Made by a program: the position numbers and the translations under genes | Notes under the pieces: generated by a model | The model's database searches: none | Told to the model about the DNA's origin: nothing | The model's input: the letters and a program-made list of their open reading frames with translations, nothing else | Assembly: GCA_003168335.1 (NCBI GenBank) | Contig: PMSM01000012.1 | Span: forward strand, 1 to 64,000 | Direction: 5' to 3' | Length of the DNA: 64,000 bases | Origin: Blastocatellia bacterium | Lineage (GTDB): Bacteria; Acidobacteriota; Blastocatellia; Pyrinomonadales; Pyrinomonadaceae | Part shown: in pieces, positions 1,220 through 60,330 of the stretch | Layout of the letters: each line of letters begins with the position of its first letter | Numbering within the stretch: position 1 is the first letter of the stretch

Positions 1220-1733
1220 ATGCGGATCCGCATAAACCCGAATCGACGCGGTTCAGAGTGCGTCCGCCGGACCAATGATGATGCAATGCGCGCCACCGCC
1301 GCTCCGGCCCAACGGCACGACGATCCTGCCCTTGAAGTACGCCTCGTCGAAGATGCCAACGATGATGGTAATCAGGTACAGCACGCCAGCGACTCTTGCC
1401 CAAAAAGTCGGGTCCACTGAGTCCGCTCTGAGCGGACGGTTGAATGTTACAGAACCGCGAGCGGTAGCGAGCGGGATAAAGACGCAAGCTCAAGAGGTTA
1501 AATATCTGTAAGAACCTTTCTCGCAAGTTGAATCCTTATCCCGCTCGCTACCGCTCGCGGTTCTGTACCGATCATTCAGCTCCTCTCCCAGCAGTAAACT
1601 GCTGGGCTACTATCATCTGTCCGCTTTGCGGACTAATAGACCCACTTACTAATAAATCCACTTATTGGGCAAAGCCCACGTCAGCGACTCTTGCCAAAGC
1701 TCGGGGCGAAATCTCAACGTCGTGCTTTGCCAT
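1220..1733 (-). pseudogene. DUF4386 membrane protein, split by a palindromic insertion
   Basis: The start is intact: AGGAG ribosome site, ATG at 1733, then MAKHDVEISPRALARVA. Reading stops at 1662 inside inserted DNA. The next part of the family (ARVAGVLYLITIIVGIFDEA) resumes in frame at about 1400 and runs to about 1310. After that a frameshift is needed to follow a family-like A-A-x-A-R-I-A-S-S...SEPRRFGFM stretch, which ends near 1220. Most of the usual 230-250 residues are absent. The 14 bases GGCAAGAGTCGCTG (minus strand) occur at both junctions, 1387-1400 and 1682-1695, so removing the insert plus one copy rebuilds the gene exactly. Relatives lie at 1775, 56599, 59395, 60363 and 61117. 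Confidence 0.85.
1401..1681. mobile_element. 281-bp palindromic MITE/REPIN-like insertion
   Basis: Non-coding insert bounded by a 14-bp direct repeat (1387-1400 and 1682-1695) inside a DUF4386 gene. It holds a perfect 32-bp inverted repeat (1448-1479 with 1536-1567, loop 56 bp) and smaller hairpins: GTCCGC...GCGGAC near 1422-1438 and 1619-1633, and CCCAGCAG...CTGCTGGG near 1588-1607. The hairpin order (GTCCGC/GCGGAC, short spacer, TAGCCCAGC/GCTGGG) is the same as beside the transposase remnant at 40.7 kb, so the two probably belong to one family. No open reading frame is seen; mobility would need a transposase from elsewhere. Confidence 0.75.
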
Positions 1734-1774: not shown

Positions 1775-2539
1775 TCATGTGCTGATCGACGCCGCTGCCT
1801 TGGCCTGCTCCTTCCATCGTTGTTCGTTCACGCCGAACACGAGGAGCCAAAAGATCGTCACGGCTGAACTCAGCAGGCCGATGAGTGCGGCGAAGAGAAA
1901 GGCGCGGTAACCCAGCGGCGGATACAGAAAAGTCAGCCAACCCAAACCTGAAATCATTCCCAGTACGCCGAGGAACCGCGGCAGGAAGGTGGAGCGGAAA
2001 ATCAGATAGCCGTTCAGTACGGTCGAGAATCCGAAAAAAGCCAGAGCCATGGCGGCGCCCTGATCATTCACCTTGAAAAGTAGGAGCGCCAGGCCCTGCA
2101 ACTGCTGCGTGCTGAATCCACTCAGCACAGACACGCCGCCTGGGGCGGAGGAGTTAGTGCCTCCGAGCACGAACAAGGGCACAATGAAGAAGACGCGCGC
2201 GAAAGTCTTGATGACGCAACCAGTAAGTTCCAGGAACGCGGCGCTTAAGGCGACGCTCTTGCTCACCGGCCTCAGCAAAACATAAAACAGAGCCACTGTG
2301 GCAATCTGGCAAGCCATCTCGATCAGGTAGACGGTGAACCCCAACTGAAACAGGCCTCGGTGCGCCAGTATGTTGGTCGCCGTAGCCGCAGCATCGGCAG
2401 AGACAATCAGCCTTTCGCTGACGAAGCCCTGGGCGAATACTCCCAACAATATCGTGAGCAAAAAGAAACCACCCGCAAGCCTCGCCTTGAACTGCGGCGA
2501 TGATCTTGCGATTCGTTCTGTCATTACGATGGTGCTCAT
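1775..2539 (-). CDS. DUF4386 family membrane protein
   Basis: 254 residues from the ATG at 2539, which follows AAGGAGAACAA; the longer upstream reading (to 2707) has no ribosome site. The DUF4386 pattern is clear: membrane segment, then RLIVSADAAATATNILAH, then about five more segments and a final WLLVFGVNEQRWKEQAK. Family members are integral membrane proteins of unknown function. The closest paralog in the window is 56599-57330, with shared YLIFRSTFxPRxLGV and WLTFLxPP blocks. Both sit just downstream of a secreted MRKLTLL-type gene, so this is half of a duplicated locus. Confidence 0.88.
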   Translation of the reverse strand: MSTIVMTERIARSSPQFKARLAGGFFLLTILLGVFAQGFVSERLIVSADAAATATNILAHRGLFQLGFTVYLIEMACQIATVALFYVLLRPVSKSVALSAAFLELTGCVIKTFARVFFIVPLFVLGGTNSSAPGGVSVLSGFSTQQLQGLALLLFKVNDQGAAMALAFFGFSTVLNGYLIFRSTFLPRFLGVLGMISGLGWLTFLYPPLGYRAFLFAALIGLLSSAVTIFWLLVFGVNEQRWKEQAKAAASIST

Positions 2540-2728
2540 TTGTTCTCCTTGTATACGTCCGCAAGTTGCACGATGCCCTTCGGATTTACTCTCTAGCCCT
2601 GCCGTTTTGGGCGGGTTCTTCAGCCGCATGTAAATGACGAGGTTGCCATTCCGAAGCATGCCCCGTTGCGGGACTGCAACAGCGAAGCCGTCAGTCTGGC
2701 CCCTCACGTTACCGTAAGATCACCCCCC

Positions 2729-3250
2729 TCATTTTGTCCGCTGAAGCTGCATGCCTGGCGCACGAAATGGCGGCTTTCCGTTCACACTGTAAGTGAATGC
2801 CTCAATGTGATGATCCGCGTCCACCATTGTGAACATAACATCGTGCATGAGGAATTTCTCGGCACTCCCGGAGACGTCCAGAAAGTCGAATGTTACCGTG
2901 TTTCCGTCCGGCGACAGCTTGCCCTGCATCCGCGGCCGATTTCCGGAATCGCAAAAATGCGTCAGGAGCAAGCGGTCCCCGTCCACATAAATCATAGTGA
3001 TCGGATCGTCTGGCCTGCCGCTTGCGGTCATCTCATGAAGGATTGCGTTGCCGGTGGATGTCACCCTAATGGTTATTTTCCCGGACATGCCCATATAGGT
3101 GCCTTCCCAGGAACCTGCCAGAGTCTTCAGTTTCTCAAAAGCCTTTTGGGCGTCCGACTGTGGGCCAGACGCTTTCGGCATCTGCATCTGCTGCGGCAAC
3201 GCGACGGCGGCCGTCGCAACCAGGATGATCAGAAGTGTTAGTTTTCGCAT
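2729..3250 (-). CDS. secreted DUF1579-like protein
   Basis: 173 residues with a cleavable-looking signal peptide (residues 1-19) followed by FEKLKTLAGSWEGTY, the usual opening of DUF1579-like beta-barrel proteins, then GKITIRVTSTGNAILHEM and VDGDRLLLTHFCDSGNRPRM. The start follows AGGAGAACCAA. Function in the periplasm is unknown; small lipophilic ligand binding is a guess from the fold class. Its first 53 coding bases match those of the gene at 58164 with 5 mismatches, and its C-terminal half matches the remnant at 57423-57698. It is transcribed away from the histidine kinase, sharing the intergenic region with the direct repeats at 3326-3373. Confidence 0.82.
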   Translation of the reverse strand: MRKLTLLIILVATAAVALPQQMQMPKASGPQSDAQKAFEKLKTLAGSWEGTYMGMSGKITIRVTSTGNAILHEMTASGRPDDPITMIYVDGDRLLLTHFCDSGNRPRMQGKLSPDGNTVTFDFLDVSGSAEKFLMHDVMFTMVDADHHIEAFTYSVNGKPPFRAPGMQLQRTK

Positions 3251-3325
3251 TTGGTTCTCCTCTTGAATGGTTTGTGGAACTGCAACGATCTACGGCTATT
3301 CTAGAGCGAAAGATGCGCGTGGATG

Positions 3326-3373
3326 TGTAAAGCGTTGGTAAAGTGACCCCCGTTTTGTAAAGACGAGGTAAAG
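3326..3373. promoter_or_regulatory. four GTAAAG direct repeats, OmpR-type operator candidate
   Basis: GTAAAG occurs at 3327, 3338, 3357 and 3368: two pairs, each with an 11-bp period, the pairs 30 bp apart. Each pair reads TGTAAAG-N4-GGTAAAG. Eleven-base direct repeats are the usual target form of winged-helix OmpR/PhoB regulators. They lie between divergent genes, so the regulator at 5418 could control both. Binding is inferred, not shown. Confidence 0.55.
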
Positions 3374-3416
3374 TCCTGGTCCCGGTCGACGCCGCTGACC
3401 AAATTTGAAGGTTATA

Positions 3417-5186
3417 ATGCGAGCGATGTTCGATCGTGTCAGAACAAATTGGCTGGTGCGGGGTTGCGTGGCGGTGATGCTGCTCACGGTGCTCGCCGGC
3501 GTGCTCCAGTATCGCGGGATCAATCGCTGGAGCAACGCCGTACGGCGACAACGCCGTGAAGTCATGGAGAGGACGCTACGAAACTTCAGCGGCGATTTCC
3601 GAGCGACCCTGCTGCAACTGCTGCCTTTCTTTCGCCCTCCGCCGGACGAAAGAGCCGATGCCGCGTTCGAGCCATATATGCTCGAGAGTACCAGACGATG
3701 GCACAGCACTTCTGACCGCCCGCAACTACTCGCCTCGATCAGCATCGGCACGCAAAGCGATAAGGGAGTCGTCTTCAGACGGCTGCAGACGGGCGACAAC
3801 CAATTCAAGACTGAAGACTGGCCCAACGAGTTTGTCGTTTATCGCCGGATCCTGGAGGAGCGTCTGCGTTTGCCCGGAAGCCAATCGCCGCTTTTTCCGA
3901 ATGGATTTGCGTTTGAGTTTTTTCAAGGTAGACCGGTGTTGATATTTCCACTTGTCACGGGGGCCCCGCCCACACCAGAGTCGCAACGGCTGCGGGGCTG
4001 GTGTTTTCTTGAAGTCGAGATTGACTATCTCCGTCAGTACCTGCTTCCCGAACTAGTGGCGCGGCACTACGGTACTGGCGCCCATTCACAGGTGGCGGTC
4101 GTTGCCAGCTACCCATTGACTATGATCTATGGCTCGGATCCAACCCTGACGACTGGGTCGTTGTCACAGGTTGACGCCGGCATTGTCTTGGTCGACGCAA
4201 ACATGCCACAGAGTGGTCAAGGGCCGCCACCTCCCCCGGATGGCTTCGCGCCGGGACCACAACCGTTTGTGTCCGACCCGCCAGGGGCGCCGCTCGCTGA
4301 GATCGGCGGCAATCGAGGAGGCCCCGACGACCGGGCCTGGTTGCTGGTGGTGAAAAGCCAAGCCGGTTCGTTTGAAGCGCTGGTCGAATACTCACGCCAG
4401 CACACTGTCCGCTTGAATTTCTGGATGCTCGTGCTGTTTGCCGCGACCTCAGTGATGTTGATGTTGGCCACGTTGCGCGCGCGCCGTTTGGCGCAACAAC
4501 AGATGGAGTTCGTGGCGGGCGTCTCTCACGAATTGCGCACGCCGCTGACCGTCATTCAATCAACGAGCTACAATTTATCGCAAGGCACGATCCAGGATCC
4601 GAGCCGGGTGCGACAATACGGTGACGTGATTCAGCGTGAAGCGCGCCGGCTGATCAATCAGATCGAGCGAATGCTTAGCTTTGCGGGTATTCAATCGGGT
4701 CGTCGAGTTTATGACCCACAACCGACCAACGTCACTGAGATAGCCGAACTCTCTTTGGCCGAATACGCCGTGCCTTTCACAGAAGATGGCTGGCAAATCG
4801 AGCAGCACTTTGCAGAAGATCTGCCTCTGGTGCTCACTGATGGTCCCGCGTTGGAAAGTGCCCTGAAGAATTTGTTTGAGAATGCGCTGAAGTACGCAGC
4901 GCGAGGCAAGTGGTTGAGTGTAACCGCGTGTGCCGCGCAAGCCAGGAAGGGCCGGGAAGTGCAAATCACTGTTGCTGACCGCGGGCCCGGAATCGCGCCG
5001 AAGGATCTTCCGCATATCTTCGAACCTTTCTATCGCGGACAGAGTGTGAATGCCGCGACGACCAGCGGCACGGGACTGGGGCTGTGTCTCGTCGAGCGTA
5101 ACCTGCGGGCGCTTGGCGGCAGCGTGACGGTGCAGTCAGCGCCAGGTGACGGGACATCGTTTACGTTGCATCTGCCGGTTTCGTGA
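3417..5186 (+). CDS. membrane sensor histidine kinase
   Basis: About 589 residues. Membrane segment near residues 13-30, a large extracytoplasmic region of about 310 residues with a proline-rich stretch (near 265-295), and a second segment near 335-358. HisKA follows, with the phospho-acceptor in FVAGVSHELRTPL (His about 371). HATPase motifs: LFENALKYAARGK (N box), DRGPGIAPKD (G1) and GTGLGLCLVERNL (G2). It should autophosphorylate and pass phosphate to the OmpR-type regulator encoded next (5418), 230 bp downstream beyond two palindromes. ATG at 3417 has GAAGG five bases upstream; TTG 3405 and ATG 3426 are alternatives. I do not recognise the sensor domain, so the stimulus is unknown. Confidence 0.93.
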   Translation: MRAMFDRVRTNWLVRGCVAVMLLTVLAGVLQYRGINRWSNAVRRQRREVMERTLRNFSGDFRATLLQLLPFFRPPPDERADAAFEPYMLESTRRWHSTSDRPQLLASISIGTQSDKGVVFRRLQTGDNQFKTEDWPNEFVVYRRILEERLRLPGSQSPLFPNGFAFEFFQGRPVLIFPLVTGAPPTPESQRLRGWCFLEVEIDYLRQYLLPELVARHYGTGAHSQVAVVASYPLTMIYGSDPTLTTGSLSQVDAGIVLVDANMPQSGQGPPPPPDGFAPGPQPFVSDPPGAPLAEIGGNRGGPDDRAWLLVVKSQAGSFEALVEYSRQHTVRLNFWMLVLFAATSVMLMLATLRARRLAQQQMEFVAGVSHELRTPLTVIQSTSYNLSQGTIQDPSRVRQYGDVIQREARRLINQIERMLSFAGIQSGRRVYDPQPTNVTEIAELSLAEYAVPFTEDGWQIEQHFAEDLPLVLTDGPALESALKNLFENALKYAARGKWLSVTACAAQARKGREVQITVADRGPGIAPKDLPHIFEPFYRGQSVNAATTSGTGLGLCLVERNLRALGGSVTVQSAPGDGTSFTLHLPVS

Positions 5187-37804: not shown

Positions 37805-40588
37805 ATGGCAATTCGGCGTCCACCTGAAGACTCTAATCCGCGCTTTGTTCGTGGCGGCGGTGTGCCGTCGCGCGTCATTCGTTATGAAGAGCCGAAGGCC
37901 GGCTTTCTTCGCCGCTTCCTGCGATTTCTTCGGCGGCCATACTTCGTTATTCCAGTTCTGCTCTTAGGGGTGCTGGCGGTAACCGTCTTCGCCTACTACT
38001 GGATTATTTTCTCGGCTCGGATAGACAATCTTTTGAAGGGCGAGATCTACACCCGGTCGGCCGGAATTTATGCCGCACCGAAGCAAATTCGCGCGGGCCA
38101 AAATATTTCGCAAGACGACCTGCTCGCTTACTTGAAGCGCGCCGGATATGTCGAGCGAGGGCAGCAGGGCGACAGTGGGCGCGGGCGTTATGTTAGTGGC
38201 GAAGGCACGATCGAAATCGAACCCGGCCAGGATTCAGTCGTTGATAGTGCGCGATCGTTCGAATCGCTGCGAGTTCAATTCGCCCGCGGCGGAAAATCAA
38301 TCGCGGCAATTACCAGCAACGGTAACAGTCAGCGTATCGAGAAAGCACTGCTCGAGCCGGAATTGATCAGCTCTGTCACCGGCCGCGAGCGGGCCAAGCG
38401 AAGAGTGGTCGGCTATAACGACCTGCCACCTGATCTGGTTCACGCGATTACGGTCACCGAAGATCGTTCCTTTTTTGATCATTACGGCGTCAATATTCGC
38501 GGCATCATTCGCGCGTTGTTGCGACGTTACGACAGTGATCCGAATTCACCGCTGGCGCGTCAGGGCGGTTCCAGCATTACCCAACAACTCGTCAAGAACC
38601 TGCTCCTTTCACCTGAACGCACGCTGAAACGCAAAGTCGCCGAAGCCTATATGTCGGTCATCCTGGAAACGCGTCTTTCGAAGCAGGATATCTTTGCGCT
38701 CTATTGTAATCAGGTCTATCTCGGACAGCAGTCGGGTTTTTCGATTAATGGTTTTGGCGAGGCAGCCAGTGCGTACTTTAATAAGGACGTCACGAATCTA
38801 ACCCTGCCTGAGTCGGCTTTTCTTGCCGGACTGATTCGCAGTCCGAATCGCTACAATCCCTACCATGACATCGACACCGCGCGTTCACGGCGCAATCAAG
38901 TGCTCGAGTCGATGGCCGAAACCGAAGCGATCACTTCAGATCAGGCAAAACAGGCTGAAGGTATTGAGTTGAAGCTCGCGGCCGTCAAGGGTCGGATAGA
39001 CATTTCTGATGCGCCGTACTTTGCGGATTATGTGCAGAATCAACTCGGTGATTTGATCGCCGGACAGGGCGCCGATCATCTGCGCATTTACACTTCGGTA
39101 GACATGGATTTGCAACGCGCGGCCTACGCCGCGGTGACTAAACAGTTGGCAGCGCTTGATAAAATCGAAGCTAAGCGCGCTCCCGAAGGCACAGTCCAGG
39201 CGGCATTGGTGGCGATGAACGCGCACACCGGCGAGATTGTGGCGATGGTTGGCGGCCGCGACTATTCGAAGAGCCAGCTTAATCGGGCCGAGGCGTTGCG
39301 GCAGCCCGGTTCGGCTTTCAAACCGTTTGTCTATGCGACCGCACTGAACACTGCGTATGATCCCATCCCGCGCGTGATCACACCGGCAACAATTTTCAAA
39401 GACGAGCCGAAGACGTTCACCTACGACAACCAGGAATACTCGCCCGGCAACATGGGCGACAAGTATTCGATGCTACCGGTAACGTTGCGCGATGCGATGG
39501 TGCACAGTCTTAACGTTGTAACTGTCGATGTCGCGATGGAAGTGACTATCGGACGCGTGATGAACCTGGCGGCGAAAGCCGGACTGCCGCGCGTCGCGCA
39601 TGCCTATCCCGCGATGGCGCTGGGCACTGCGGAAGCCACGCCGCTCCAGGTTGCTTCCGCTTACACGGCCTTCGCCGCGAACGGAACTCGCACGACGCCA
39701 CTGGCCATCGATCGCATCACTACCGGCACCGGCACAACGATAGCTCGACCCACCGCACAAAAGAACGAAGTACTCCGTCCTGAGATCGCTTATGTCATGA
39801 CTTCGTTCATGAAGGACGTGGTCAACCGCGGGACCGGCGCGCCCATTCGCGCGCGCGGATTCAAATTCAATGTGGCCGGCAAGACCGGAACGTCTCGTGA
39901 CGGTTGGTTTGCCGGCTACACACCTGATCTGGTTTGCGTCGTCTGGGTCGGATTCGACGATGGATCGCAATTGGGTTTGACCGGTGCGGCCTCAGCGCTT
40001 CCAATCTGGGCGGACTTCATGAGCGCGGCACTTACAGTTCACCCGGAGTGGACCGGTGATTGGCAGATGCCCGAAGGTGTGCAGCAAGCCGACATCGATC
40101 CGACGACGGGCCAACTAGCCAGGGCGGACACGACCAGCAAGCGCCCGGAACTCTTTATCGGTGGGACCTTGCCGGGATCGGAAAACGCAGCCACACCTGA
40201 GGACATGGCGCAGGAAGCGCCCGCACAAACTGACAGCGAAGGAAACCGAAAAGATCCGCAGACTGAGCCGGCCAAGTTACCTGAATCTCCGCCGACTGAA
40301 CCGCCAAGGCCAAAGCCTACGCCGCCGAAGAACGATTCACGATCGAAGCTCGATTCCCGCGACTTTCATGAGGACGACGCGTCGCCCAAGTTGCAGGGCA
40401 CAATCACGCTCGACATCGATCCGACTACCGGCTTGATTGCGGTTGAGAGTTGCCCGGTGATACGCACGAAAACTTTTATCATCGGCCAGGAACCCAGGAA
40501 GTATTGCGGTCCTGAGTATCACAAGAAAGCCCAACCCTCACCGCCGGCTACACGATCGCGGTTTGCCAATCCTCAGCAATTCAAATAA
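37805..40588 (+). CDS. bifunctional penicillin-binding protein, PBP1b-like
   Basis: 927 residues. Cytoplasmic N-terminus, one membrane segment (about 47-72), UB2H-like domain (80-160), glycosyltransferase GT51 domain with catalytic Glu in VTEDRSFFDHYGVNIRG and QGGSSITQQLVKNLLL, and a transpeptidase domain with SxxK in QPGSAFKPFVYATAL, SLN in HSLNVVTV and KTG in VAGKTGTSRDGWFAG. A Pro/Glu/Lys-rich linker (780-860) and a small C-terminal domain holding two Cys (SCP, KYCGP) end it. It polymerises and cross-links peptidoglycan. The UB2H domain normally meets an outer-membrane activator such as LpoB. Confidence 0.96.
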   Translation: MAIRRPPEDSNPRFVRGGGVPSRVIRYEEPKAGFLRRFLRFLRRPYFVIPVLLLGVLAVTVFAYYWIIFSARIDNLLKGEIYTRSAGIYAAPKQIRAGQNISQDDLLAYLKRAGYVERGQQGDSGRGRYVSGEGTIEIEPGQDSVVDSARSFESLRVQFARGGKSIAAITSNGNSQRIEKALLEPELISSVTGRERAKRRVVGYNDLPPDLVHAITVTEDRSFFDHYGVNIRGIIRALLRRYDSDPNSPLARQGGSSITQQLVKNLLLSPERTLKRKVAEAYMSVILETRLSKQDIFALYCNQVYLGQQSGFSINGFGEAASAYFNKDVTNLTLPESAFLAGLIRSPNRYNPYHDIDTARSRRNQVLESMAETEAITSDQAKQAEGIELKLAAVKGRIDISDAPYFADYVQNQLGDLIAGQGADHLRIYTSVDMDLQRAAYAAVTKQLAALDKIEAKRAPEGTVQAALVAMNAHTGEIVAMVGGRDYSKSQLNRAEALRQPGSAFKPFVYATALNTAYDPIPRVITPATIFKDEPKTFTYDNQEYSPGNMGDKYSMLPVTLRDAMVHSLNVVTVDVAMEVTIGRVMNLAAKAGLPRVAHAYPAMALGTAEATPLQVASAYTAFAANGTRTTPLAIDRITTGTGTTIARPTAQKNEVLRPEIAYVMTSFMKDVVNRGTGAPIRARGFKFNVAGKTGTSRDGWFAGYTPDLVCVVWVGFDDGSQLGLTGAASALPIWADFMSAALTVHPEWTGDWQMPEGVQQADIDPTTGQLARADTTSKRPELFIGGTLPGSENAATPEDMAQEAPAQTDSEGNRKDPQTEPAKLPESPPTEPPRPKPTPPKNDSRSKLDSRDFHEDDASPKLQGTITLDIDPTTGLIAVESCPVIRTKTFIIGQEPRKYCGPEYHKKAQPSPPATRSRFANPQQFK

Positions 40589-40665: not shown

Positions 40666-40940
40666 AGATGAGTCCGCTGCGCGGACGAATGAAAATAGCC
40701 CAGCGATTTATCGCTGGGATCAGGTTGTAAGCGAGGGACCGAGTCCGCGAAGCGGACGGCTGAAGAAAGGTACTCCCATGTCACATTGTTACGTCAGCAA
40801 CCTCATGCATTGCACCTTCAACACGAAAGACCGGTATCCATTCATCGATTCAAATCTGGAGCGTCTCAAGAAGCACGGCATTGAATACGATTCGCGTTAC
40901 GTCTTTTGAAGTTCAGCCGTCCGCTCCACGGACTACTTCT
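40666..40940. mobile_element. REP element around a deleted IS200-like (RAYT) transposase
   Basis: Hairpins AGTCCGCTGCGCGGAC (40668), CCCAGCGATTTATCGCTGGG (40693) and AGTCCGCGAAGCGGAC (40741) precede a 43-residue transposase remnant; CGTCCGCTCCACGGAC follows it (about 40919). The hairpin set matches the 1401-1681 insert. This looks like a non-autonomous REP/RAYT derivative. Confidence 0.7.
40778..40909 (+). pseudogene. internally deleted REP-associated tyrosine transposase
   Basis: 43 residues. The first 24 (MSHCYVSNLMHCTFNTKDRY and on) match the N-terminus of REP-associated IS200/IS605-like transposases. The last 17 (LERLKKHGIEYDSRYVF) match their extreme C-terminus. About 100 middle residues, including the HUH metal-binding pair and catalytic Tyr, are missing, but the reading frame is preserved across the junction. 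A weak GAAAGG site precedes the ATG. It cannot be an active transposase; whether the short peptide is made is unknown. Confidence 0.75.
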
Positions 40941-40973
40941 CCTGTATGGCATCTGATCCCACCGATAAAGAGT

Positions 40974-41235
40974 CCGTGTCAAAACTCAGCTTCCCAGCGC
41001 CAAAGGCGCGAAATGTAAAAGCCCAGGGCAACGCCCTGGGTGAGCGCGCGTATGAGTCTCCAAGCGCTGAAAGCGCGAAATGGCAACGCCGTAACCGAAA
41101 CGGTGAGCATCAAGGCGCCTTCCCGATCATTGCGCGCTTTCAGCGCTCGGAAACTTGACTGGCTTGTACCTGGGCCGATGGCCCAGGCTATTACATTTCG
41201 CGCCTTTGGCGCTGGGAAGCTGAGTTTTGACACGG
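40974..41235. repeat. 262-bp composite palindrome with perfect 45-bp arms
   Basis: Bases 40974-41018 are the exact reverse complement of 41191-41235. Inside, AGCCCAGGGCAACGCCCTGGG and CCTGGGCCGATGGCCCAGGCT form hairpins. CAAGCGCTGAAAGCGCGAAA (41058-41077) is complementary to the GCGCGCTTTCAGCGCTCGG region (41133-41151). The span 40589-41335 has no complete gene. Confidence 0.88.
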
Positions 41236-60180: not shown

Positions 60181-60330
60181 TTGGAATCTAAGGCCCGGAG
60201 GGCCGTGAGGAAATAGCCACGACCGTCAGGTCGTGGATCGAAAGCGATTCAAAACAATCGCGGACCGAAGGGCCGATAGGTGGGACGTTCATGTCGGTCC
60301 TTCGGACCTCCTCAATCATCTCGAATACTC
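60181..60330. repeat. REP block between DUF4386 genes
   Basis: GGCCCGGAGGGCC, CCACGACCGTCAGGTCGTGG and GGTCCTTCGGACC hairpins in series. GGTCCTTCGGACCTCCTCAA (from about 60296) recurs at about 63024, with ATCAT following in both copies. No gene in 60109-60362. Confidence 0.8.

Follow-up and report, generated by a model that had tools for sequence, protein, structure and literature searches.

Insertion sequences (IS) of the IS481 family are reported, in the sections of PMC10045372 that deal with them, to duplicate 2–15 bp of the target, and IS481EU elements to produce duplications of about 4, 15 and 25 bp and to end in TG..CA. REP/RAYT systems have been reported from the Acidobacteria: PMC3733652 describes tyrosine transposases flanked by terminal inverted repeats (TIR) in four species, and PMC6006769 describes, for Solibacter, class 3 enzymes together with about 600 hairpins. 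Acido-Lenti-1 (RF01687) is entered as 'probably' an RNA in Table 1 of Weinberg et al. 2010 (PMC2864571). Literature searches on Acido-Lenti-1 and on REPIN/RAYT in Acidobacteria turned up no paper in which Acido-Lenti-1 is called a REP, and searches on Acidobacteria REPIN/RAYT, IS481 MITEs and Blastocatellia repeats yielded no description of the element examined here.

That element lies in a 64-kb stretch of DNA from a Blastocatellia bacterium, hereafter the window. In the best reading it is a non-autonomous MITE, a miniature transposon that lacks a transposase of its own, and this is likely; it would have IS481-type ends, a 9 bp target site duplication and a mosaic interior of REP-like palindromes. 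An earlier note, made from the letters of the window, had claimed a 14 bp duplication flanking a 281 bp segment, and both copies were located: CAGCGACTCTTGCC is found at 1387–1400 and 1682–1695, is absent elsewhere on both strands of the window, and its copies are separated by 281 bp (1401–1681). The fuller similarity at the junctions is CACG[C/T]CAGCGACTCTTGCC, 19 bp with one mismatch, at 1382–1400 and 1677–1695. Length alone does not make the 14 bp repeat decisive; chance would give about 0.09 exact 14-mers per 64 kb at a spacing of 100–500, and the window contains one other repeat of at least 14 bp at such a spacing (15 bp, at 40090 and 40411). It becomes meaningful through its position, which coincides with the ends of an element that is itself repeated. 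The collinearity of the joined flanks with intact DUF4386 relatives adds further weight.

Comparison with relatives set the ends of the element, a non-coding segment of nested hairpins that is 286 bp long (1391–1676) and runs from GACTCTTGCCCAAAAAGTC to ATTGGGCAAAGCC. The left TIR (1391–1409, plus strand) is a variant of RGCTTTGCMCAAAAAGTC with one extra base, and the right TIR (1659–1676, minus strand) is GGCTTTGCCCAATAAGTG. They are bordered by the 9 bp target duplications CACGCCAGC (1382–1390) on the left and CACGTCAGC (1677–1685) on the right, and the likeness between the two copies extends to 1400 and 1695, respectively. No transposase is encoded inside the element, the open reading frames across it being short, mechanical and overlapping both flanks. 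The proposal of the earlier note that a short non-autonomous palindromic element was inserted here is supported, as relatives provide an independent definition of the ends and the duplication lies at those ends; its description of the insertion as recent, caught in a gene and flanked by a 14 bp duplication is either not supported or needs correction. A recent date is not supported because the 9 bp duplication already differs at one position and a close full-length copy was not seen elsewhere in this genome. Occurrence of the same 281 bp block elsewhere without a flanking duplication had been named as a finding that would count against insertion. No such occurrence came to light: with 40 of 111 candidates scored, 79 matches were listed for this genome, and the window copy alone among them extends over more than some 130 of 321 bases.

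An IS481-type element in a relative (contig C56 of genome G034) has the same ends, (R)GCTTTGC(A/C)CAAAAAGT, and most two-ended elements in relatives are flanked by a 9 bp duplication. The set consisted of 18 elements, namely 21 two-ended rows minus the window (L086) and two internal rows of locus L379, and 13 of them had flanks that agreed in at least 7 of 9 positions, 6 of these 13 in all nine. Of 420 mismatched controls, 2.4% matched in at least 7 of 9 positions; for elements and controls alike the boundaries could be moved by up to 2 bases. No clear duplication was seen in the remaining five of the 18. The flanks of the window element match in 8 of 9 positions (CACG[C/T]CAGC). When long forms with GTCCGC/Acido-Lenti-1 interiors were bounded by hand, 3 of 15 shared at least 8 bp, compared with 0.4% of 240 controls, and this set gives weak support because those three had been noticed by eye before the boundaries were set. 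The 18-nt end GGCTTTGCACAAAAAGTA, counted at up to 3 mismatches, outnumbered its reversed control in the relatives G001 (34 versus 8), G061 (45 versus 7) and G074 (20 versus 3), and less so in G014 (20 versus 9). It was hardly in excess in G004 (8 versus 4) and showed no excess in this genome (5 versus 7), G034 (9 versus 7) or G080 (4 versus 4). The right end of the window element has 3 mismatches to the 18-nt consensus.

In the window, the right end GGGCAAAGCC stops at 1676 and is followed by CACGTCAGC; the similarity to the copy in contig C214 of G074 also ends at 1676, where the duplication starts. At the left boundary, GACTCTTGCCCAAAAAGTC comes after CACGCCAGC and corresponds to the end variant GACTTTGC.., known in G014, with one extra base. 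A 9 bp duplication with one mismatch would therefore be the simplest reading. The ten target bases that come next, GACTCTTGCC, are identical to the left end of the element, which is why the repeat appears to be 14 bp, or 19 bp with one mismatch; the 14 bp first proposed more likely represent 9 bp plus target bases matching the element end. This likeness might have arisen by chance and then been extended by local conversion, or might reflect a longer duplication. In the latter case the same element would have made a true 19 bp duplication and its left end would have lost its first nine bases. The 19 bp similarity with a single mismatch favours this, as do the reading frame, by which both copies are native gene sequence, and the discrete lengths reported for the IS481 group, 19 being 9 plus about one helical turn. 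A 19 bp duplication is nonetheless unlikely, as 9 bp is the length seen in the other copies that have such ends, and a truncated left end, rather than the intact GGCTTTGCC, would be required at the same time.

The intact IS481-type element with the same ends (G034:C56:261–1925) carries AGCTTTGCACAAAAAGTC at both ends and the 9 bp duplication CTCCGACGG on both sides. It encodes a transposase of 353 residues that scored just under the 224-bit cut-off of the NCBIfam IS481 model NF033577 (220.7 bits, E 2.7e-65) and over the cut-off of the Pfam LZ_Tnp_IS481, HTH and rve models. ISL3 and other families with 8 bp duplications were considered first and were set aside when the intact element proved to be IS481-type. 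The window element resembles IS481-family elements and MITEs in having TIRs and a 9 bp target duplication like those of the G034 element, and differs in lacking a transposase, in its interior of REP-like palindromes and in an apparent repeat longer than 9 bp. It also begins with RGCTTTGC.., whereas the IS481EU ends given in the passages of PMC10045372 on that group are TG..CA. We infer that an IS481-type transposase moved the window copy. A DDE transposase acting in trans would have joined the MITE to staggered cuts in the DUF4386 sequence, and gap repair would have left the 9 bp duplication. Homologues of the G034-type transposase were not found in this genome (G000) or in G001, G004, G014 and G080, in a search limited to relatives of the G034 transposase, and weak homologues were found in G061 and G074. 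Present-day mobility in this genome is thus only putative, as the G034-type transposase was not found there.

The interior is made up of two palindrome families. REP1 (1448–1567) contains the perfect 32 bp inverted repeat, which was found as the earlier note had claimed, at 1448–1479 (left arm, plus strand) and 1536–1567 (right arm, minus strand), within arms of 47 nt that are 87% complementary. Most of the 79 listed matches mentioned above are due to REP1, and the palindrome also occurs, with variable loops, in other elements. Rfam matches to eukaryotic microRNA families over the palindrome were below their gathering scores and were dismissed as chance matches to a long hairpin. The second family is Acido-Lenti-1. 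A two-hairpin module at 1587–1634 (plus strand) matches the whole RF01687 model with 31.3 bits, below the gathering score of 37, and a GTCCGC..GCGGAC hairpin at 1421–1437 is the left remnant of an Acido-Lenti-1-type end, so that the window copy has one full module and a left one reduced to its outer hairpin. Outside the Acido-Lenti-1 hairpins is a further inverted repeat, TTGCCCAAAAAGT / ACTTATTGGGCAA, which is also present in long forms of other genera. A 16-nt tandem duplication, ACTAATARAYCCACTT, occupies 1632–1663 and is single in the G074:C214 copy.

Both families have also spread in this genome separately from the element, the interior of which is a mosaic of these two REP-like palindromes. 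At least 136 Acido-Lenti-1 matches at E≤1e-3 were found here (150 of 1618 candidates scored), and none in 14 control genomes. Matches were present in at least 45 of 60 relatives, over the cut-off in at least 38 (84 candidates scored per genome); these copy numbers are lower bounds, as only part of the first-look candidates was scored. When neighbouring matches less than 700 bp apart were examined, 37 of 40 were divergent, with spacers of 89–162 bp in about 35, of 222–226 bp in two and of 555 bp in one, and the 555 bp spacer encloses a Y1 transposase gene. Within the window, three further matches over the gathering score, two of which form a divergent pair, are located at 40671–41213 and a fourth match lies at 60191–60236.

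Palindromes of this kind flank Y1 genes elsewhere in this genome. RF01687 was found within 150 bp of 3 of 14 PF01797 hits, and the matches form several two-hairpin subfamilies, the flanks of the best-scoring Y1 genes holding further hairpin variants. A strict criterion required a perfect hairpin with TAGCC at its foot. Of the 8 best-scoring Y1 genes, 5 had such hairpins on both sides and the other 3 on neither side; they were found at none of 6 weaker PF01797 hits and in 10 of 407 background windows. The link was weaker in relatives, where a Y1 gene was found in 3 of 29 RF01687-centred loci and in 1 of 40 control loci. Five of six Y1 proteins scored over the cut-off of the NCBIfam IS200/IS605 model (NF033573), and one of the six matched the REP-associated model, far below its cut-off. 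The likeness to REPIN/BIME with RAYT (TnpA_REP) lies, for the family in this genome, in the inverted hairpin pairs, their position beside Y1 genes, the high copy number and the TAG(CC) at the hairpin foot (GTAG in the window copy). The differences are that the window copy has IS481-type ends and a target duplication, and that the Y1 proteins of this genome score as IS200/IS605, one of them as weakly REP-associated.

A Y1 transposase of the IS200/IS605 type could have placed the palindromes in the window via single-stranded DNA, as REPIN/BIME-type elements, with the direct repeat being incidental. The repetition of Acido-Lenti-1 and REP1 in this genome and the occurrence of such palindromes beside Y1 genes are in keeping with this. 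We know of no target duplication made in Y1 transposition. When 36 Acido-Lenti-1 pairs without IS481-type ends were tested in this genome, their 80 bp flanks shared no more than 8 bp, in line with mismatched controls, and the 14 bp repeat in the window is longer than any found in 1332 mismatched control pairs of Acido-Lenti-1 flanks (maximum 13). None of the 36 pairs has a duplication and the window copy has one, located at the ends of a different inverted repeat that is common to the IS481-type element. Placement by a Y1 transposase is thus very unlikely, and a 14 bp duplication as a trait of the palindromes was rejected. The duplication therefore goes with the outer, IS481-type ends.

The copy number of at least 136, the divergent orientation of 37 of 40 close neighbours and the position of some copies beside Y1 genes indicate that the Acido-Lenti-1 'RNA' is probably a mobile REP module, and it is probably a substrate of IS200/IS605-type Y1 transposases. 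The window module resembles the Acido-Lenti-1 RNA in matching the whole model and differs in scoring below the gathering score, and inverted pairs beside Y1 genes argue for a mobile DNA palindrome as opposed to an RNA gene. A broader proposal, which we make tentatively and regard as possible rather than probable, is that Acido-Lenti-1, instead of being an RNA gene, serves as the REP module for a variety of IS200/IS605-type Y1 transposases in this branch of the Acidobacteriota, and that such modules have been captured by IS481-type MITEs. The result would be a nested element capable of two independent moves, double-stranded via the outer ends and single-stranded, by an HUH mechanism, via the inner hairpins. 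What looked like an odd insertion belongs to a family for which the ends and the duplication length are defined and an intact IS481-type relative is known. Acido-Lenti-1, a probable RNA in Rfam, is worth re-examining given its well over 100 copies in this genome, the inverted pairs that most close neighbours form and its position beside Y1 genes. Its probable nature as a mobile REP module deserves testing most; if it holds, genome annotations with Acido-Lenti-1 entered as small RNA genes count mobile DNA.

The target was a DUF4386-like sequence, the leftover start of a membrane-protein gene. When the flanks are joined across one copy of the repeat they read MAKHDVEISPRALARVA-GVLYLITIIVGIFDEAYFKGRIVVP, an uninterrupted DUF4386-like frame with AAAAGGAGCTGACATG at its start, and the restored reading claimed earlier was thus recovered. 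The 5′ part is at 1686–1733 (minus strand, start codon 1731–1733) and the 3′ part, up to GRIVVP, is at 1315–1390 (minus strand). The insertion is nevertheless in a gene remnant and not in a gene, as only 42 DUF4386 residues are left, where intact family members have open frames of 163–321 residues, and the frame then enters a sequence of about 50 bp (1263–1314) that recurs elsewhere. The Pfam DUF4386 model matched the joined peptide weakly (17.3 bits, E 0.0047, cut-off 27.6 bits, profile positions 1–27) and the C-terminal piece alone at E 0.033, and did not match the N-terminal piece alone. Fifteen other places in 97 relatives and this genome match across the junction, the best with 54–55% identity, which indicates that the two gene parts were once continuous.

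An empty DUF4386 allele, for which the earlier note proposed a search in close relatives, did not come to light. In the genome contigs searched, 593 stretches fitted a pattern of the peptide, and none was confirmed as related to the joined peptide or as the remnant's intact orthologue; an exact empty site was not found there either. Contig C283 of G074 is syntenic with the window over 148–608 and 1819–3500 and was considered as an empty site. It is uninformative on this point because the two syntenic blocks are separated by a run of N, exactly at the place of the insertion. That there was no insertion at all, the gene parts never having been contiguous and an intergenic repeat cluster having grown by recombination between short direct repeats, would fit the failure to find an empty allele and the patchwork character of the region, composed of a gene remnant, the repeated sequence of about 50 bp and palindromes. 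This is extremely improbable, given that intact relatives at 15 places align collinearly with the joined frame through the junction and that the ends of the element are defined independently.

Under the preferred reading as an inserted MITE, the origin of the copy can be considered. The closest copy seen, G074:C214, is in another genus (g9) and shares 67 of 70 bases of the right part and 40 of 43 of the left end, the interior being different; its flanks share 3 bp in the hand-bounded test of long-form duplications. The window at 1819–3500 is 92–95% identical to G074:C283 (L341), whereas the same-genus G001 is 72% identical over 1803–2460. That the neighbourhood is closer to another genus than to its own suggests that the segment moved between genera, and horizontal exchange is the probable cause of the similarity. 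The element may perhaps have travelled with that segment, and we infer that the copy came from a g9-like lineage.

The long form was at first thought to be unique to the window in this genome, a view abandoned when a second, one-ended candidate was found at C12:282369–282386. It adjoins another Acido-Lenti-1 pair, and no left end was found for it. In this region (L349, G000:C12:282350–282450) and in L304 (G074:C214), the flank GATAGCGCGCGTGACGCGATTTCGGCAAA lies beside a long-form end in the same orientation, and the two may be a single old insertion site whose element contents differ. L379 in G001 (contig C66, 900–3386 in the locus) is 2.5 kb long and has the same ends and the flanking repeat GAACCATAG. 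It carries open reading frames, none of them recognised as a transposase, and is perhaps a passenger-carrying relative.

The sequence of about 50 bp at 1263–1314, the reading of which makes up the odd tail of the joined frame, recurs at L104 (G000:C13:101643–101694), L105 (G000:C1:402–451) and L107 (G034:C52). The recurrences sit in a longer conserved stretch, from GCCGAACAAATCGTTGGACCGG to GTTGGGC-like letters, which we take to resemble an integron attC site. A glyoxalase-like gene at 651–1067 is flanked by GTTAGGC (650) and GCCTAAC (1084) within 600–1090. It is shared at 92% identity with G034, G004 and G014, where its surroundings differ, a pattern that would fit a mobile gene cassette. The window at 34–88 matches short repeats in many places in G034 and in some in G014 and G061.
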